Positions 2,924-14,105 of a DNA stretch of 59,062 nt are shown here, one piece after another. A program made the translations under genes and the position numbers. The stretch is taken from positions 1 to 59,062 of the IMG/VR virus record IMGVR_UViG_3300037493_000177. One strand, written 5' to 3'. Each line of letters begins with the position of its first letter. Position 1 is the first letter of the stretch. This stretch comes from a virus. Below the pieces are notes generated by a model, which made no database searches, was not told where the DNA came from, and was given only the letters and a program-made list of their open reading frames with translations.

Positions 2924-3127
2924 ATGAACAACGAAATAAAATACTTAGTCTATAAGAACGGTGTGAACATAGGTTCATTTAAGAACTTAGTTCTTGGCAT
3001 CGCTCAGATCAAATCTACATGTTTGGATAACATTACTATGTATCAGATACGAGACATAGTAACACAGGAAGTGCTGTGGGACGGATTAGTAAACGGCTCT
3101 ACCACTGAAGTATCTATCGACACTTGA
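2924..3127 (+). CDS. Hypothetical protein, 67 aa (doubtful)
   Basis: An open frame with a weak ribosome site (GGAA) sits immediately after the gp32 terminator. The 67 residue product has no cysteine cluster or membrane segment; it contains KYLVYKNG and a central hydrophobic helix-like part. Its last 42 bases are antisense to the 3' end of the tape measure gene. No promoter fits between terminator and start, so expression would need read-through, and minus-strand transcripts may run through it. I keep it because the frame has sensible composition and the region is otherwise empty. Confidence 0.4.
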   Translation: MNNEIKYLVYKNGVNIGSFKNLVLGIAQIKSTCLDNITMYQIRDIVTQEVLWDGLVNGSTTEVSIDT

Positions 3128-5086
3128 TTCGTGAGTGCGAACATTAGAAGTCACCTTTGCAATAGAAGTTTGTTTAACGTTGTTATTGACTGTAGGAGCA
3201 CTAACGATATTAGATCCACCACTAGCTTTCTCTTTCATTGCAAGCGTTTGTTCCGACATACCAGCAACTCTAGATCCGCTAACAGAACTAAATGAAGCTA
3301 GTCCAGCACTAAGCTTCTCTATTCCTATCCCAGCTTGAGAAAGTCCAGGACCATAACTAGCAATTTGTTCTAATTGCTCAATAGGCGATTTCTGTCCACT
3401 TACTGCACCTAAGAATCCAGTCACCAAGTTTGCAACTCCAGCGACTGCACCACCCGCACCAAATGCTGCCATGCCAGCACCAACGGCAACTAGTCCAGCA
3501 CCAACGGCTAATAGATTGCTACCATCAACTGCACCGAGTCTCTCAATACTTGTAACGATTGAATCCATGATTCCAGTGATGGCATCTGATATTGCTGTTA
3601 CTACGTTGACGATTACGTCTCCGATTGATTTTAGAATCTCTGGAATTGCTTTAATAGCTTCAATAAACACACCACCAACTACTTCGGCGACCTTCATCAA
3701 GACAGGAGCAAAAGCAGCAATTGCTGGAGCTGCCATCTCTAATGCTTTACCGATACCCATCGCAGCTAGAGTGAATGTGCCCATGCCGATTATAGTTGCA
3801 GGGTTTGCTAATGACGCAAATCCTTTACCCAGTCCTTCAAGCAGTCCCTGTAGTCCAGCGCCAGCGCCTTTACCTAATTTAGCTAGTGCATCGCCTAAAG
3901 ATCCTATGCCTCCAGCTAAAGATGCTAGCATTCCATCGCCACCCGCACCACCGCCTGCAGAACCCGAACTTTTAGCGCCACCAGTTCTGGGTTTAGTGTT
4001 ATTCACTAATTGTTTTAGTAAGAATACCTGTTGCTCTTGAATTTTGAAAGGTGTAGACTTATCAGCCTTAGCTACTACTATCTTTCTCTTTTCAGTCAAG
4101 TCTTTCTTTGCAGTTTCAGGAGAAGGTGTATGAACTTCCGCAATCTTGATAGGAATCGGAATATCCGCTTTTCTCTTTTCTACAATAGCTTCTTTAGCAA
4201 CTTCCGGTGATGACTTTGGTTCACGTGAAATAGGTATTTCTGTTTTACGCTTATCGGCAATAGCAGCTTTTGCGTTGCCCTTACTTTCTTTAGATTTGTC
4301 ATCGGCTTCTTTAGTCATAGAAGCTCTTATATCATGCTTAGCGTATTCTGCTGTATGAACTTTCTTCACTGCTAGTAGTTCTTTCCCTTTAGGGAATTTT
4401 GCCATTTCTTCATCCGTTAGTGGACCAGCAGCTCCACCAGCTTCTTTTTTAAATTTTTCGATATCGGCTGCATTGCCCTTAATATCTTTAGAAGCTTTTT
4501 GAGCTCCAGCAAAACTAGCTTTTAATTCTTTATCTGATTTTGTCGAACCCAGCAATTTCTGCTGTTTAACAAAATCACCCTGCGCAATTTTCTTGTTGAG
4601 TAACCCGCCAACATTCACAGCGCTTAATGCAGTTCTTCCAAGATTGCCCTTACCAAACTTATCGGTGAATCCCTTCTTCATATCGCCTAGTTTTTCACCA
4701 AGCGTCTTAAAGGTTCTCATACTTTGACCTATTGCAGCTATTGCTGCAGCTTCTCGCGAACCTCTCTGGTCATTTCTCTTTGCAAGTTCTACTAATTCTT
4801 CTTGGCTTTTTTGAATAGCGTGTAGAGAAGTGTTTTCTTCTACAATAGTTTTATCTATTTTCTTTTGTTCTACTACGCTTGCAGCATCGAGAGCAGTTAA
4901 AGCAGAAAGCTTTCGAGAATCTATAATTAAAGATTCTCGAATAGACTCCAAATGTCCCTGAGATATTTGCTGCGATTCTAGCAATTTCTTAAACGAATCA
5001 GAGCTAATGCCATTGCCACCGGAGACGGAAACATTAGTGGTAGTACTAATGTTTATTGGAGTTTTTTTCGCTTGTCTTTTTGCCAT
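3086..5086 (-). CDS. 29: Tail tape measure protein (gp29 equivalent)
   Basis: At 666 aa (T4 gp29: 590) this is the longest gene of the minus cluster and directly follows the gp26-like/frameshift ORF pair, the usual place of a tape measure gene. The protein sets tail length and is later released from the tube. The N-terminal half is charged and helical, with three imperfect copies of an AK..(I/L)..KRK module around residues 275-340. A Gly/Ala-rich stretch follows (about 370-430), then a long hydrophobic, possibly membrane-active region (about 430-520), and a polar C-terminus. It ends antisense to the small gene at 2924-3127. Sequence identity to T4 gp29 is not obvious to me, so the call rests on length, composition and context. 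Confidence 0.75.
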   Translation of the reverse strand: MAKRQAKKTPINISTTTNVSVSGGNGISSDSFKKLLESQQISQGHLESIRESLIIDSRKLSALTALDAASVVEQKKIDKTIVEENTSLHAIQKSQEELVELAKRNDQRGSREAAAIAAIGQSMRTFKTLGEKLGDMKKGFTDKFGKGNLGRTALSAVNVGGLLNKKIAQGDFVKQQKLLGSTKSDKELKASFAGAQKASKDIKGNAADIEKFKKEAGGAAGPLTDEEMAKFPKGKELLAVKKVHTAEYAKHDIRASMTKEADDKSKESKGNAKAAIADKRKTEIPISREPKSSPEVAKEAIVEKRKADIPIPIKIAEVHTPSPETAKKDLTEKRKIVVAKADKSTPFKIQEQQVFLLKQLVNNTKPRTGGAKSSGSAGGGAGGDGMLASLAGGIGSLGDALAKLGKGAGAGLQGLLEGLGKGFASLANPATIIGMGTFTLAAMGIGKALEMAAPAIAAFAPVLMKVAEVVGGVFIEAIKAIPEILKSIGDVIVNVVTAISDAITGIMDSIVTSIERLGAVDGSNLLAVGAGLVAVGAGMAAFGAGGAVAGVANLVTGFLGAVSGQKSPIEQLEQIASYGPGLSQAGIGIEKLSAGLASFSSVSGSRVAGMSEQTLAMKEKASGGSNIVSAPTVNNNVKQTSIAKVTSNVRTHESSVDRYFSGRAVY

Positions 5087-5091
5087 GATAG

Positions 5092-5235
5092 TTATCTCTT
5101 TTGTGCTTCTAAGCGTTGTTTTTCTTCTTCTAAATACTGTATGAGCATAGCGGTATAAATTTCACGTTCAAAGGGGATCATATTCTCAATTTCCCCTAGA
5201 CTATACTTGTGGTACTGCATAAGTGCAAAGTTCAT
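5092..5235 (-). CDS. 47 aa ORF between gp26 and tape measure (C-terminal part of a frameshifted tail chaperone)
   Basis: This small ORF starts with MNFALMQYHKYSLGEIEN and contains MIPFEREIY and a charged helical tail ending at TAA (5092-5094), five bases before the tape measure start. The ATG at 5233-5235 has no ribosome site. The same frame is open further upstream to base 5277, exactly at a slippery heptamer at the end of the gp26 gene. It is therefore more likely made as the C-terminal extension of gp26 by -1 frameshift (product from 5987 to 5092, about 298 aa) than alone. The (H)KYSL.EIE.MIPFERE pattern resembles short proteins found before tape measure genes in other T4-like phages. Confidence 0.7.
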   Translation of the reverse strand: MNFALMQYHKYSLGEIENMIPFEREIYTAMLIQYLEEEKQRLEAQKR

Positions 5236-5273
5236 CTTATAATAATTATGCAGACTATCATGATATAAGCAAA

Positions 5274-5987
5274 TTAGAAAAAAGATTCGAGGCCTTTAAT
5301 AACCTTCTCATGATCTTTTTTACATACTGGGCAGGCGTACTTAACGGTCTCTTCAAGCTTCGGCATCGTGTCAAAGAATCCTTGAAGTTTGCCAAATTGC
5401 TCTTGCGTTAAGTTGTTTACAAACTCACGAACCTCTTCTGGTTTCTGTTCTTTAGTTGGATAAATTTCATCGCTATCATAGATAGAGTCGATACACTGGC
5501 AGATGATTTCGAATACTAATTCTACGTCTCCGTCTGCGATGCCTTCCATTTTCTTAATGATATCAAGAGTTGGATATTTCATGATAGCACCAACATCATT
5601 AAACAGGAGGATAGTCTTATGATGATCTTTTGGTATTTGTACTTTAACTTTAGTCAAATCAATAGAATATTGAACTGTAGCTTTATCATCTTCACAAGTG
5701 TCGCACTTTAAGATAACGTCTACAATCTCGCCAACTGACTTAGCTCTAAGTTGTGTGAAGATGTATTCAACATCAAAAATAGCTAGATCATTAACGTTAA
5801 TCTTATCCATGATACACGATTCAATGACAGACTTTAAAGTCTCAATCATCGTATCTGGATCTTCACTCTGCTGAGCAATCAATAGAGCCTTTTCTTCTTT
5901 AACTAGAAATGGTCTATAGGTGACAGCCTTGTTGGTTGAAGGAATAGTCAATTTGTATCGCGGCGCTTGGGCCTGTGGTAATGCCAT
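5274..5987 (-). CDS. 26: gp26-like baseplate hub / tail assembly chaperone
   Basis: At 237 aa (T4 gp26: 208) it matches the T4_baseplate (gp26) family: N-terminal LTIPSTNK and YRPFLVKEEKALL, then an alternating helical body with DLAIFDVEYIF and RAKSVGE. Two CxxC pairs (C95/C98 and C219/C222) probably form one zinc site. T4 gp26 is needed for hub assembly. The family's N-terminal layout and its position just before a small frame and the tape measure gene recall the lambda G protein, which binds the tape measure during tail assembly. The stop TAA directly follows a slippery T TTT TTC (5277-5283), so a longer trans-frame form is likely. It is three bases from the gp16 stop. Confidence 0.85.
   Translation of the reverse strand: MALPQAQAPRYKLTIPSTNKAVTYRPFLVKEEKALLIAQQSEDPDTMIETLKSVIESCIMDKINVNDLAIFDVEYIFTQLRAKSVGEIVDVILKCDTCEDDKATVQYSIDLTKVKVQIPKDHHKTILLFNDVGAIMKYPTLDIIKKMEGIADGDVELVFEIICQCIDSIYDSDEIYPTKEQKPEEVREFVNNLTQEQFGKLQGFFDTMPKLEETVKYACPVCKKDHEKVIKGLESFF
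5277..5283 (-). promoter_or_regulatory. Putative -1 ribosomal frameshift site (T TTT TTC)
   Basis: Read on the minus strand, the last sense codons of the gp26 gene are GAA TCT TTT TTC followed by TAA. This gives an X XXY YYZ heptamer T TTT TTC immediately before the stop. AAAGG, a Shine-Dalgarno-like stimulator, lies 9 bases upstream. In the -1 frame there is no stop for 61 codons until 5092. All three are the features expected of a lambda G/GT-type site; efficiency cannot be judged from sequence. Confidence 0.7.
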
Positions 5988-6410: not shown

Positions 6411-6680
6411 TTATTTTACTGGTGTGTCAGTGCTATTAATTGTTGCAGTCTTTTCTTGAGTGCGGCCATATGCCGAAACACCAAGAATAGCACCAAATGC
6501 TAAGTGAATAAATCCGCCATTATCGAGAGTTAATGACTTCCACATATCAATTTCTACGCCCTTTAATTTTAAAATTAGTACGAATGCTGGTGCTATAACG
6601 AAATCAAAAATATTGATTGCCATATACGTCCAACCCATTGCTGGGCGCCATAATTTTTGTATCCAATGTTCTTCGTTCAT
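6411..6680 (-). CDS. Putative holin (small membrane protein)
   Basis: 89 aa. A short amphipathic start with WIQKLWRPAMGW is followed by a hydrophobic segment at residues 17-38 and a second at 56-72, then a polar Ser/Thr tail. WRPAMGWxY recalls the small 3TM holin family seen in gene transfer agents and marine T4-like phages. A holin would permeabilise the inner membrane at lysis. No separate soluble endolysin is seen next to it; the only murein hydrolase in the window is gp5. The start overlaps the gp54 stop (ATGA). It could instead be another small membrane protein. Confidence 0.6.
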   Translation of the reverse strand: MNEEHWIQKLWRPAMGWTYMAINIFDFVIAPAFVLILKLKGVEIDMWKSLTLDNGGFIHLAFGAILGVSAYGRTQEKTATINSTDTPVK

Positions 6681-7438
6681 GCGAATAATCCTCCCAGATT
6701 TGTCTCTATACCTTGTCGTTCTAATTGTGCAATTGCATTGCTATAAGAAGCATTGTCATTAACTCTTTGTTGATATTCTTGAAAATTAGAATAATACAAT
6801 TCATTTGTAGTAGAGTCTATACTTATAGCAGTTTGCGCGTATTCTTGTAAGGTAGTCAAATCATTTGACTTTTCTATATCCTGATTGCTGAATGCGTCCG
6901 ATGAACTAGTAGCCCAGTTTCTATTAAAGTGATTCTTATACGCAAACGTAATTGCTAATTTCATTACATCTTTAGAATTATTGTCTAATACGATTGCTTG
7001 TATGGATTTAGGATATACTTCGCGCAATTCACATTCATACGTATTACTATTCTCAGTGTCTTGAATTATAATGTTCATCGTAGTAGCGTACTGATCGTAA
7101 TATCCAGAAAGTCTAGTCGCTGGATCTATAATGATATTCATCCATTCATCAAATAGTTTTTTAACAAGCATCTTAGTATCAACTAAAAACGTGAGTGTTA
7201 TATTCTCAAAAGTTCTATCTGAAACCATTTCTCGAACTTCACCATATGTTCTAATTGGCTGAGTGACCATAGCAATACCAGGCAATGTAGCCTGTTCGCA
7301 AAATAGATGAACGATATTAAATTCTTTATATAAGTTTGGCATTCCCTTTGGAATAGCTAAATTTACAGTGAATCTATTTTGTCTCGCTAATCCATCTTTT
7401 TTAATTTGCGAAATAAAACTTGATAATGGTTCTGCCAT
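6677..7438 (-). CDS. 54: gp54 baseplate tail-tube initiator
   Basis: 253 aa starting at the ATG at 7438 (MAEPLSSFI), which overlaps the previous stop as TAATG. A 28 codon upstream extension of the frame lies inside the preceding gene and looks unrelated, so I reject it. The protein shows the tail-tube fold family pattern: RFTVNLAIP near the start, LFCEQATLPGI, RTYGEVREMVSDRTFENI, LFDEWMNIIIDP, YPKSIQAI and a C-terminal extension. It relates to the tube protein gp19, with which T4 gp54 shares its fold. gp54 sits on gp48 at the top of the hub and starts tube polymerisation. Here it is far from gp48, on the opposite strand. Confidence 0.8.
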   Translation of the reverse strand: MAEPLSSFISQIKKDGLARQNRFTVNLAIPKGMPNLYKEFNIVHLFCEQATLPGIAMVTQPIRTYGEVREMVSDRTFENITLTFLVDTKMLVKKLFDEWMNIIIDPATRLSGYYDQYATTMNIIIQDTENSNTYECELREVYPKSIQAIVLDNNSKDVMKLAITFAYKNHFNRNWATSSSDAFSNQDIEKSNDLTTLQEYAQTAISIDSTTNELYYSNFQEYQQRVNDNASYSNAIAQLERQGIETNLGGLFA

Positions 7439-8022
7439 TACATTCCTCCAGTATTTTTCCAGACTTGCGAAGAAGAAGCTTTTGTAAAACTTTCCACTGG
7501 CAACATCATTGCAGTAACCCAATCTGTTGGGGATATTAATTTAGTCGGTGTCATGACGTGGTCATAGAGATATGATTTTACACAATGCTCGGCTAACTTA
7601 TGTTTTGAAATTCCACTAATGATATTCCACGAATATCTAAGTCTAGTAGTTTCATCTAAATTTTTAGTTGATTTGAATTTTAAAAGATTGTCTAATAAAA
7701 CTACTCTAAATTTGTATGACAAGTAATGCATATTCAATCCAGTGAATCCAGTTGCCGATGTAGCAAATGGAAACACCATAGGAAATCTATCATAGTGTGG
7801 CAAAGTTTCTTTATGTTTTGGATCATAGAAAAACATATACAGACTGCCGGGTTTAATGGTATTTGATATTACACCAGAATTTGTAAACACTCCACGTGGC
7901 TTAATGCCTTCTTTAGTTAAAAGAGTAGCCTGTTGTCTAAACCAACTTCTTGAATTATTCACGACCGATTGGTCGAATTGATGCTTTTCAAAAACATCTA
8001 GCATACTTTTCTGTGGTGTCAT
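7438..8022 (-). CDS. Conserved T4-like protein of unknown function, 194 aa
   Basis: Contains the pattern PGSLYMFFYDPKHKETLP followed by YDRFPMVFPF, GLNMHYLSY, a Lys/Asp-rich TRLRYSWNI segment and near the end WVTAMMLPVESF. I recognise this as a family found in many distant T4-like phages, encoded near head-completion genes. I know of no established function, and its gene position suggests a virion or assembly protein. It overlaps gp4 upstream (ATGA) and gp54 downstream (TAATG), so the three are translated from one message. T4 itself has gp2 (DNA end protector) next to gp4; I see no basis to equate them. Confidence 0.7.
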   Translation of the reverse strand: MTPQKSMLDVFEKHQFDQSVVNNSRSWFRQQATLLTKEGIKPRGVFTNSGVISNTIKPGSLYMFFYDPKHKETLPHYDRFPMVFPFATSATGFTGLNMHYLSYKFRVVLLDNLLKFKSTKNLDETTRLRYSWNIISGISKHKLAEHCVKSYLYDHVMTPTKLISPTDWVTAMMLPVESFTKASSSQVWKNTGGM

Positions 8023-10345: not shown

Positions 10346-11628
10346 GCCAAAGTGCAATAGCAGAATCATTAAGATTTGCCGGTGACGTATCAATACGCAA
10401 ATTACAGTTAGTATCATCTAACAACTTTGCAGTTGATATCACCGATCAAATGATCGGCATAGAAATGCACGAGGATTTATTCTCGCCATTTATTACTATG
10501 ACTATAGTAGTGCGCGAGTCTCTTGACTTTATCAATTCTTTGCCTCTGCGTGGCGAAGAAATTATAAATGTAGAGTTTGCTACTCCAACTTTTACTAAAG
10601 ATAACGATATCGTAAAAGGAAAGTTCTACGTTTATAAATTGAGTGATAGACAGTTGCTCAATGATAAGAATTCGGTGTACGCATTGCATTGCATATCGTA
10701 TGAAGCTCTTACTGATATGAACGTCAAACAATCTAAAGCGTTTAGAGGGAATATTAGCGATATCGCAGAAACTCTCATCAAAGCAGATGGTTTAAATACA
10801 ACTAAAAAGTATAACATTGAACCAACTAAGAATTCAATGAAGTATGTTTCAAACTTCTGGTCTCCGATTAAAAATTTGAATTTCATAGCATGTAACGCTC
10901 TCAATAAAAATGGAAGTGCATCCTATCTATTTTTTGAAAATAGAACAGGGTTTAATTTCGTATCATTAGATGCGCTGTATGCACAAGACACGTATCAGAA
11001 ATTCGTAAAAGATAATTATACTCGTGATACAGAAGGAACTGCGTCATTTAGAAATTTAGATAGAGACTACCAAAGAATCATAGAATTTAGAATTAAAACT
11101 CTTTATGATTCTTTAAAATATACTAGTTCTGGAGCGTACGCTTCTAGATTATTCGCGTATGATTTAGTTAAAAAGAAATACTTTGCTAAAGACTTCGTAG
11201 CATCCAATGATTTTAGCAAGTTCAACCATTTGAATAAGCTTCCATTATATACGAGTTTCAAACCAGTTAGTCCAGTCAATTCTATAAGCACAGAAGTTAG
11301 ACACTTTGGAAGTCATAACGGTTTTGCCGATACTAGCAATGTTGCATTCGAACAATCTAGAAATTCTGCTATTCAAACATTAAGATCTTCGACTGTAGAG
11401 ATTGAGGTATTTGGTAGAACAGATTATACTGTTGGCCAAAAAATGTATATTGAAGTTTATAAACCAACTGTCATGACTTCAACTGACGACATGAGCACCA
11501 ACGATAAAACTGGCGTTATTGACACAACTTATTCTGGAAATTATATTGTTACTGCTATTAATCACATGATCGATAGAGAGAGTCACACATGTATTTTAGA
11601 ATTATCTAAAGAATCGATGATAGAATGA
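10342..11628 (+). CDS. 27: Baseplate hub protein, gp27-like
   Basis: 428 aa (T4 gp27: 391). gp27 forms the trimeric hub on which the gp5 spike sits. The first 100 residues look like the phage hub fold: FAVDITDQMIGIEMHEDLFSP, then FVYKLSDR-like strands with alternating hydrophobics. The C-terminus holds a beta-barrel type end (YTVGQKMYIEV, GNYIVTAINHMIDR). Direct overlap with the gp5 gene (ATGA) is the strongest support, since spike and hub genes are usually adjacent in contractile systems. I see no close identity with T4 gp27, so this is a context-supported family call. Confidence 0.75.
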   Translation: MSQSAIAESLRFAGDVSIRKLQLVSSNNFAVDITDQMIGIEMHEDLFSPFITMTIVVRESLDFINSLPLRGEEIINVEFATPTFTKDNDIVKGKFYVYKLSDRQLLNDKNSVYALHCISYEALTDMNVKQSKAFRGNISDIAETLIKADGLNTTKKYNIEPTKNSMKYVSNFWSPIKNLNFIACNALNKNGSASYLFFENRTGFNFVSLDALYAQDTYQKFVKDNYTRDTEGTASFRNLDRDYQRIIEFRIKTLYDSLKYTSSGAYASRLFAYDLVKKKYFAKDFVASNDFSKFNHLNKLPLYTSFKPVSPVNSISTEVRHFGSHNGFADTSNVAFEQSRNSAIQTLRSSTVEIEVFGRTDYTVGQKMYIEVYKPTVMTSTDDMSTNDKTGVIDTTYSGNYIVTAINHMIDRESHTCILELSKESMIE

Positions 11629-14105
11629 TATACACTGGCGTTGTAGAAAATAGATATGATCCACTGAAACTTGGCCGATGCCAAGTCAGAATAATCGGAC
11701 TTCATACTCACGATAAACAAAGACTTCCAACTGAAGACTTGCCTTGGGCGTATCCAATGCAGAGTATAACTTCAGCTGCGATGAGTGGCATTGGTTCGAC
11801 ACCTCTTGGTTTAGTTGAAGGCACGTCAGTATTAATTGCATTCCAAGACGTTGATTTACAATATCCTATTATGATAGGATCACTTGGTGGAATTCCACAG
11901 AGCGCAAGTAGTATTAGCGTAGATGATTCTACACTTCAATTAAAAATTGATGGTGAATTAAAAGAATCTAATGCACAAAGTAACATCGTCGTTGATGGCA
12001 CTGGAAACCCAGTACTCAGTGGCGATGGAACTCCTGTAACTACGACACAGCCACCACCGACTTTAGAGAATACTAATGCTCTTAAACGTGCTGCAGAGTT
12101 TACTCCAAGCGCAAACTGCATAGCACTAATTAAGAGATTTGAGGGATTGAAACTTCAATCATACCAAGATTCTGTTGGTATATGGACTATTGGTTATGGA
12201 ACCACTAGAATAAATGGTCAGCCTCTTACTAGTGGAATGAATATCACCATTGCTCAGGCTGAATCATATTTGCTTTCAGACTTATCGGCTGACCATGCAG
12301 CATCTGTAAAACGCAATACAAGAGCATTGATCACGCAATCTATGTTCGATGCACTAGCATGCTTTACGTATAATGTCGGAAGTGGCAATTTTGCAAAATC
12401 CACACTATTAAAAGACTTAAACGCTAGCAAGTATTTGGACGCAGCCGCTGGATTTTTACAATGGGATAAAGCTGGTGGAGTAATACTTGCTGGATTGACT
12501 AAGCGTAGATTAGCTGAAAAAGATTTATTTTTAGCCGATGGAATTCCAAATTCTGCAGGAGAATTACCACCAACTGAACAGACGACAGCGACAGTTGCAA
12601 CGACAGGAACTGCGACAGCCGCAGCAACAACTACGGGTGCAGTTCAATCAACTGGAAGTGTTAATGGATTTGGCGATCCAAAAGGTGTATACCCACTCTA
12701 TATCAATGAGCCTGATACTAATAGATTAGCACGACATGAAGAAATTAGTAAAACGATTGTTTATAAAAAAGATGCTGCGCTAGTCAAAGGTGTTGAAGTT
12801 GCTGGTGGAACTACATGGGACCAATCACCTAATCCGTACAACACGTCATATCCGTTTAACCATGTGATGATGACGGAATCTGGTCACGTATTAGAGTTTG
12901 ACGATTCTCCACATTCAGAACGTATTCATTTATATCACAAGTCCGGCACCTTCATGGAGATTGATGCTAATGGAACTCAAGTTACTCGCATAGTCGGCGA
13001 TGGATACGAAATATACGAGAGAAATGGGTATGTACATATCAATGGTTCGCTCAATGTGACAGTTGATGGTGCCGCTAACATTCTAGTTAAGAATGGATTA
13101 AACTTAGATGTACGAGGCACTGTAAACATCAACGTTTACAATGACGTAAATCTTAACGTGAGTGGATCACTGAATGCATCAGTGACTGAATCATTTAAAC
13201 TTAAAGCTGCTACTGTCATTATCGAAGGTGATACTGTAGATCTAAGATCTAACGGTGGGTTGACTATGAGTGGTAGTGGAGATGTTAACATTAATTCTGG
13301 TGGAACTTTACATGCAGATGGATCATTCATTGATATTGCTAATGGTGCTTCTACAGCAGTTGCATCTGGATTAGGTGCAGCAGGTGCTAAACAAACACCA
13401 GAAATGCCAGAGTTTAATCCATTGACTGTGATAGGTAGAAGTGCTGGCGCTGCTGGACAATATGAAACTCCTGAAGAAGGTGATTCATCTACGTATCAAC
13501 AAAAGCAAATTAACAGTGGTGCAATTAAGTCTGAAGAACTTAATACTGGAGCTCAAACAGAAGCCGCCGCTGCACCAACAAATACTGTCGCGCCCGCAAC
13601 AGCGAGTTGCGATATCATTATGATGAAGCAAACGTTTGAGCCATCATTCTCGTTATCTAAGAATTATACACTTGCGGCATTGACTTCGAATGGCAGTAGA
13701 ATGCCAGTAGCACAACAGGGCTTAAGCGCGCAGACAATCGTGTGCAATCTAAAAGGTCTATGTGAAAACTACTTAGAAGTAGTTCGAAATCTATATCCCA
13801 ATGTGATTATCACTTCTGGGTTTAGACGCCCTGGCGACGTTGCGGCTTCATCGAAGACATCTGATCATTATCTTGGTTCTGCTGTCGATATCGTAATTCC
13901 TAGTATTGGCAGAAAAGGTCACTATGAAGCAATTCAAAGAATTCAACAATTGGTCCCATATGATCAGTTGATTTTAGAATATCAAGGTGCAACAACCGTG
14001 TGGATTCATGGATCGTTCAGATATACTGGCGCTAGAAAACAAATATTTACAATGCGTGATCATCGTAGAATTGGTGACATGGGTCAATTCATATTAGTAG
14101 CATGA
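11625..14105 (+). CDS. 5: gp5 baseplate hub spike with lysozyme and M15 peptidase domains
   Basis: 826 aa against 575 in T4. Order: OB-fold at about 1-92 (VVENRYDPLKLGRCQVRI...); linker; phage lysozyme domain at about 160-315 with E173 (RFEGL), D182 and T188, exactly the 9- and 6-residue spacing of T4 lysozyme E11/D20/T26; Ala/Thr-rich linker; triple-stranded beta-helix spike at about 411-590 with repeating V-x-I-x-V strands; Pro/Ala/Glu linker; and a C-terminal M15-type peptidase at about 670-826 with SGFRRP, SDHYLGSAVD (H748, D755), YDQLILE (E785) and WIHGSF (H795). The lysozyme cuts glycan; M15 enzymes cut peptide cross-links. Together they would open the cell wall during tail entry. It overlaps its neighbours (ATGA). 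Confidence 0.9.
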   Translation: MIYTGVVENRYDPLKLGRCQVRIIGLHTHDKQRLPTEDLPWAYPMQSITSAAMSGIGSTPLGLVEGTSVLIAFQDVDLQYPIMIGSLGGIPQSASSISVDDSTLQLKIDGELKESNAQSNIVVDGTGNPVLSGDGTPVTTTQPPPTLENTNALKRAAEFTPSANCIALIKRFEGLKLQSYQDSVGIWTIGYGTTRINGQPLTSGMNITIAQAESYLLSDLSADHAASVKRNTRALITQSMFDALACFTYNVGSGNFAKSTLLKDLNASKYLDAAAGFLQWDKAGGVILAGLTKRRLAEKDLFLADGIPNSAGELPPTEQTTATVATTGTATAAATTTGAVQSTGSVNGFGDPKGVYPLYINEPDTNRLARHEEISKTIVYKKDAALVKGVEVAGGTTWDQSPNPYNTSYPFNHVMMTESGHVLEFDDSPHSERIHLYHKSGTFMEIDANGTQVTRIVGDGYEIYERNGYVHINGSLNVTVDGAANILVKNGLNLDVRGTVNINVYNDVNLNVSGSLNASVTESFKLKAATVIIEGDTVDLRSNGGLTMSGSGDVNINSGGTLHADGSFIDIANGASTAVASGLGAAGAKQTPEMPEFNPLTVIGRSAGAAGQYETPEEGDSSTYQQKQINSGAIKSEELNTGAQTEAAAAPTNTVAPATASCDIIMMKQTFEPSFSLSKNYTLAALTSNGSRMPVAQQGLSAQTIVCNLKGLCENYLEVVRNLYPNVIITSGFRRPGDVAASSKTSDHYLGSAVDIVIPSIGRKGHYEAIQRIQQLVPYDQLILEYQGATTVWIHGSFRYTGARKQIFTMRDHRRIGDMGQFILVA

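Follow-up and report, generated by a model that had tools for sequence, protein, structure and literature searches.

Frameshifting of the G-T type was described in a 2016 review as conserved in long-tailed phages 'except T4' (PMC5009743). The chaperone genes of T4-like phages were identified by Vladimirov, Gautam and Davidson (Virology 2022, 566:9-15; cited in PMC10885494 and PMC12846349). Drawing on that study, the authors of PRFect state that some T4-like phages do not frameshift but have two genes, one short and the other a fused long form, and the paper on phage Adele cites it for poly-T -1 signals in the TAC-N genes of T4-like phages. T4 itself requires gp51, a protein whose function is unknown and which is missing from the particle (PMC3004832).

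The window analyzed here is the whole 59,062 nt of a 59-kb IMG/VR virus record. The neighbors of its gp26-like gene form a T4-like morphogenesis block, with homologues of the terminase small subunit, a holin-like protein, the tail tube protein, gp2 (DNA end protector), gp4 (head closure), gp48, and gp53. The elements discussed below are:

3086-5086, minus strand: tape measure protein gene, 666 aa, directly downstream of the gp26 locus; weak match to phrog_6090 (E 3.7e-4)
5092-5235, minus strand: 47-aa ATG ORF within the -1 extension, without a ribosome site; probably no independent gene
5092-5277, minus strand: -1 frame extension (TAC-C, 'gp51' domain), 61 codons plus stop; phrog_634
5274-5987, minus strand: gp26-like gene, very probably the short tail assembly chaperone (TAC-N), 237 aa; PF12322, phrog_150
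5277-5283, minus strand: slippery heptamer T_TTT_TTC, in phase and abutting the gp26 stop TAA (5276-5274)
5293-5297, minus strand: AAAGG, a weak Shine-Dalgarno-like (SD-like) element and candidate stimulator, 9 nt upstream of the heptamer
6677-7522, minus strand: tail tube protein gene, upstream; phrog_45, E 1.4e-34, residues 32-248 matched

The listed start of the tail tube gene is mechanical; the true start is probably an internal ATG near 7435. The holin-like ORF (89 aa, window positions 6411-6680) lies between the genes for the tail tube and the terminase small subunit and scores just over the Pfam cut-off for GTA_holin_3TM. Farther along, positions 11625-14105 encode an 826-aa baseplate-spike-like protein in which a lysozyme-like middle domain and a peptidase-like C-terminal domain can be recognized by eye.

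The gp26-like product matched PF12322 (E 2.6e-63; 214 bits against a Pfam cut-off of 24.5) and phrog_150 (E 2e-67), and its AlphaFold model had a pLDDT of 86. Relatives of solved structure were sought by sequence; the sole match, to MtrB, was non-significant (E 0.08). The gene ends in TCT TTT TTC TAA, and the heptamer, divided as T (5283), TTT (5282-5280), and TTC (5279-5277), is phased so that two tRNA-Phe could slip to -1 at the same time. From there the -1 frame provides 61 sense codons (5277-5095) and a stop (5094-5092), 5 nt short of the tape measure ATG (5086); gp26 and extension together make 298 aa (TAC-NC). The original prediction had described the heptamer directly before the gp26 stop, AAAGG 9 bases upstream, and a -1 frame that stays open over 61 codons, through the 47-aa ORF, to 5 bases before the tape measure gene. 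Its heptamer position was exact to the base, AAAGG was found at 5297-5293, and the frame was confirmed as described. Among the 59 window ORFs of at least 100 aa, only two have an in-phase X_XXY_YYZ within their last 15 codons, and a long open -1 frame follows in gp26 only (60 codons past the stop; 10 in the other ORF). When the same stretch was shuffled, the -1 frame stayed open in 0.5% of cases.

The -1 product matched phrog_634 ('baseplate hub assembly catalyst', gp51) at E 2.6e-26; the match covered positions 56-116 of the 121 in the profile. A further match, to the C-terminal part of phrog_150 (E 5.9e-7), implies that both parts occur in a single chain in some members of that family. No second copy of the gp51 domain was found in this record, a 59-kb fragment.

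Conservation was assessed in 94 frameshift-type loci, 91 of them distinct: 79 IMG/VR contigs, 14 isolates, and the window. The isolates were the Kyanoviridae S-RSM4, P-SSM4, and S-WAM2; Pelagibacter phage HTVC008M; Methylophilales phage Melnitz-1; Stenotrophomonas phages DLP6 and YB07; Sinorhizobium phage phiM19; Rhizobium phage RL2RES; Pseudomonas phages pf16 and Astolliot; Desulfovibrio phage 7757; Vibrio phage D481; and Aeromonas phage AS-szw. An alignment of related gp26 genes had been proposed as a check on the prediction, and it bore the prediction out: in each of the 94 loci gp26 closes with X_TTT_TTN in phase, and the -1 frame is open and codes for the same domain (phrog_634). The IMG/VR relatives taken alone have the T run, the open frame, and the domain in 79/79, the short -1 frames of two of the relatives (L004, L013) being cut by contig ends. 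In 94/94 the first slippery codon is TTT, although 30% of the Phe codons in the rest of these genes are TTC (p = 2e-14), and the codon before the slippery one has T as its last base in 94/94 (p = 1e-11); these p-values overstate the strength of the result because related sequences were counted as independent. Even so, both results are unanimous across very divergent phages.

Vladimirov, Gautam and Davidson (2022) reportedly found that several T4-like groups retain frameshifting and that T4 makes use of genes 26 and 51. In T4, gene 51 lies divergently from gene 26, and its product is a paralogue of gp26 (PF12322, E 4e-52) whose last ~50 residues correspond to the -1 domain of the present phage. 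T4 gp51 thus joins a gp26-family domain to the same C-terminal domain, and the long product exists in T4 as one ORF. For this kinship we relied on the Pfam and PHROG results, because the gp26 alignment (A1), compared directly with T4 gp51 as a profile, matched it locally but in a shifted register. Phages that have lost the slippery site offer a clean natural control for the signal. We used 11 with the gene 51/26 arrangement, among them T4, PG7, CHI14, VR20, RB49-like kvi, Acj61, fHyAci03, Rgz1, and AhMtk13a, drawn from isolates because a search of IMG/VR with T4 gp26 gave 6 loci only. None of them (0/11) closes gp26 with a slippery heptamer in phase. Phe-Phe is kept there in 6/11, now written TTC TTT or TTC TTC; the T4 site reads GAG TTC TTT GAG. 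When a tree was built from the shared domain, gene 26 fell into one supported group and gene 51 into another, and the frameshift forms stood apart from both. This topology is compatible with one duplication, as far as long branches and an arbitrary root permit. Given the conservation in 94/94 loci and the loss of the heptamer in two-gene phages, it is very probable that gp26 serves as the short chaperone and that the -1 shift yields its long form.

An SD-like element stands 8-10 nt before the heptamer in 72/91 distinct loci, most commonly GGAGG at 10 nt; compared with the GGAGG that most relatives have, the AAAGG of the window is weak. The dnaX -1 site has a similar spacing. A match to the SD sequence of at least 4 nt was present at the site in 79/91 loci, as compared to 32% at random places in the same genes. 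Where a Glu codon precedes Gly at this site, GAG outnumbers GAA by 42:10, against 15:47 for Glu-Gly elsewhere (p = 2e-9, overstated in the same way). The aligned loci indicate that codon-level selection is acting on both the slippery site and the upstream element. A conserved downstream hairpin or pseudoknot was not found (RNAalifold on 14 close relatives: 2 pairs, -1.2 kcal/mol), and single-sequence folding against simple shuffles gave no convincing structure (mean z -1.6; window -0.2). In E. coli, U_UUU_UUN sites shift less readily than A_AAA_AAG (PMC5009743); together with the weak AAAGG and the lack of conserved downstream structure, this means that the slippage rate could be low. It is conceivable, if on balance a little doubtful, that marine T4-like phages tune the frameshift with a codon-selected SD-like element 8-10 nt upstream and without conserved downstream RNA structure, that the T4 lineage lost the site at the point where duplicated genes came to replace it, and that the weaker AAAGG of this phage reflects a different short-to-long ratio.

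The small ORF might instead be an ordinary separate gene (gp51), started at its ATG (5235) or by coupling after the gp26 stop. An ATG ORF is indeed present, many cyanophage records annotate it in this way, and some distant relatives (VibD481, YB07, RL2RES) show a TAATG or TGATG overlap. In the window, however, no start overlaps the gp26 stop, and the ATG, as originally predicted, has no ribosome site (CATAATTATTATAAG-ATG); in most relatives a start codon is missing from this position, where the residue is usually Thr, Val, Leu, or Ile and is Met in 15/91. At four loci there is no ATG, GTG, or TTG anywhere between the heptamer and the ATG position. The prediction had also held that the extension before the ATG looks like real protein, and this stretch is in fact conserved as protein among relatives (LxHxxLxNYYK), with codon entropies of 1.20, 0.84, and 1.57 at positions 1-3, the third being the most variable. 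This pattern indicates that the -1 extension is under protein-level selection and has no independent start. A separate gene would also leave the heptamer and its codon choice unexplained, and we regard it as very unlikely.

A long form could also arise if RNA polymerase, and not the ribosome, slipped on the T run. Close relatives do have runs of 8 T, but in the window and most relatives the run stops at T6 before a C, which is short for such slippage, and both the conserved phase of the heptamer and an SD-like element held at 8-10 nt fit ribosomes; polymerase slippage is very unlikely. Poly-T is common in AT-rich DNA, and the heptamer and open frame might both have been thought fortuitous; conservation in 94/94 loci, the codon-choice tests, and a homologous domain in the -1 frame reduce the likelihood of chance to practically nothing.

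Ribosomal frameshifting is thus the preferred reading: we consider it very likely that gp26 is a tail assembly chaperone and that minority -1 slippage on T_TTT_TTC gives the long form, as for lambda G/GT. This lambda-like reading, which the original prediction had proposed, is supported by the site, the frame, the conservation of residues upstream of the ATG, and the usual lack of a start codon. From sequence and analogy we infer that slippage occurs, at what rate, and with what chaperone function and binding partners. Most ribosomes would end at TAA, releasing the 237-aa short form (TAC-N). A minority, with two tRNA-Phe on the heptamer, would slip back one base, read CTA ATT TGC onward, and produce the 298-aa TAC-NC ending in a small helical domain (TAC-C). 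If lambda gpG/gpGT is a guide, the short form, in excess, would coat the tape measure protein encoded next, the extra domain of the long form would recruit the tail tube protein and so link tape measure to tube, and neither form would stay in the virion. We favor this scheme as the simplest account: the gene precedes the tape measure gene, the place expected of a frameshifting chaperone, and the genetics of T4 gp51 fit.

If so, what routine annotation lists as 'gp26' and 'gp51' in cyanophages, vibriophages, and uncultured phages is one recoded gene cut in two. In public cyanophage records (S-RSM4, P-SSM4, S-WAM2), the -1 domain is either a separate 'gp51' with assorted arbitrary starts or omitted. 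Five gp26 homologues, from Ackermannviridae and two Vibrio phages, lack the T6 site and were kept outside the 94 loci. The positions are:

L082 3765-3899, L083 3717-3902, L084 1514-1689: -1 domain in cyanophage records
L093 2798-2970, L095 2750-2910, L102 2780-2980: Ackermannviridae gp26 homologues without the T6 heptamer
L088 2755-2935, L092 2718-2905: Vibrio gp26 homologues without the T6 heptamer (K447, K475)

These five (e.g. GAG ATT TTC ATT TAA) keep an open -1 frame and a conserved C-terminal domain, which in Ackermannviridae reads ..SYFVMCDEL..GYSIFEI.E.MPWHL... Some have a TAATG overlap, and the five group together in the tree. It is possible that their long form is made through another shift site or by coupled initiation.

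The locus shares with lambda G/GT a short and a -1 extended product, a position just before the tape measure gene, and a C-terminal part reached by slippage (PMC5009743); it differs in its slippery site, and no sequence relation to lambda is claimed. The Vandenendeviridae and Andersonviridae, though different phage families, likewise have a conserved -1 signal (GTTTTT) ending TAC-N (PMC12846349). With T4 the kinship is one of sequence, gp26 being a TAC-N homologue and gp51 its paralogue with the same C-terminal domain, but there the genes are two and divergent and the heptamer is lost; our results support reading T4 gp26 and gp51 as tape-measure chaperones, not hub parts. The closest match is to the T4-like frameshifting chaperones of Vladimirov et al. 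(2022), which, as that work is cited by others, belong to the same gene family (26/51) and use a poly-T -1 signal. Since the core idea has been published for T4-like phages, the present phage is no discovery; it is a good new example, an uncultured member of that group, and the findings on codon choice and on the SD-like element may extend the earlier work.
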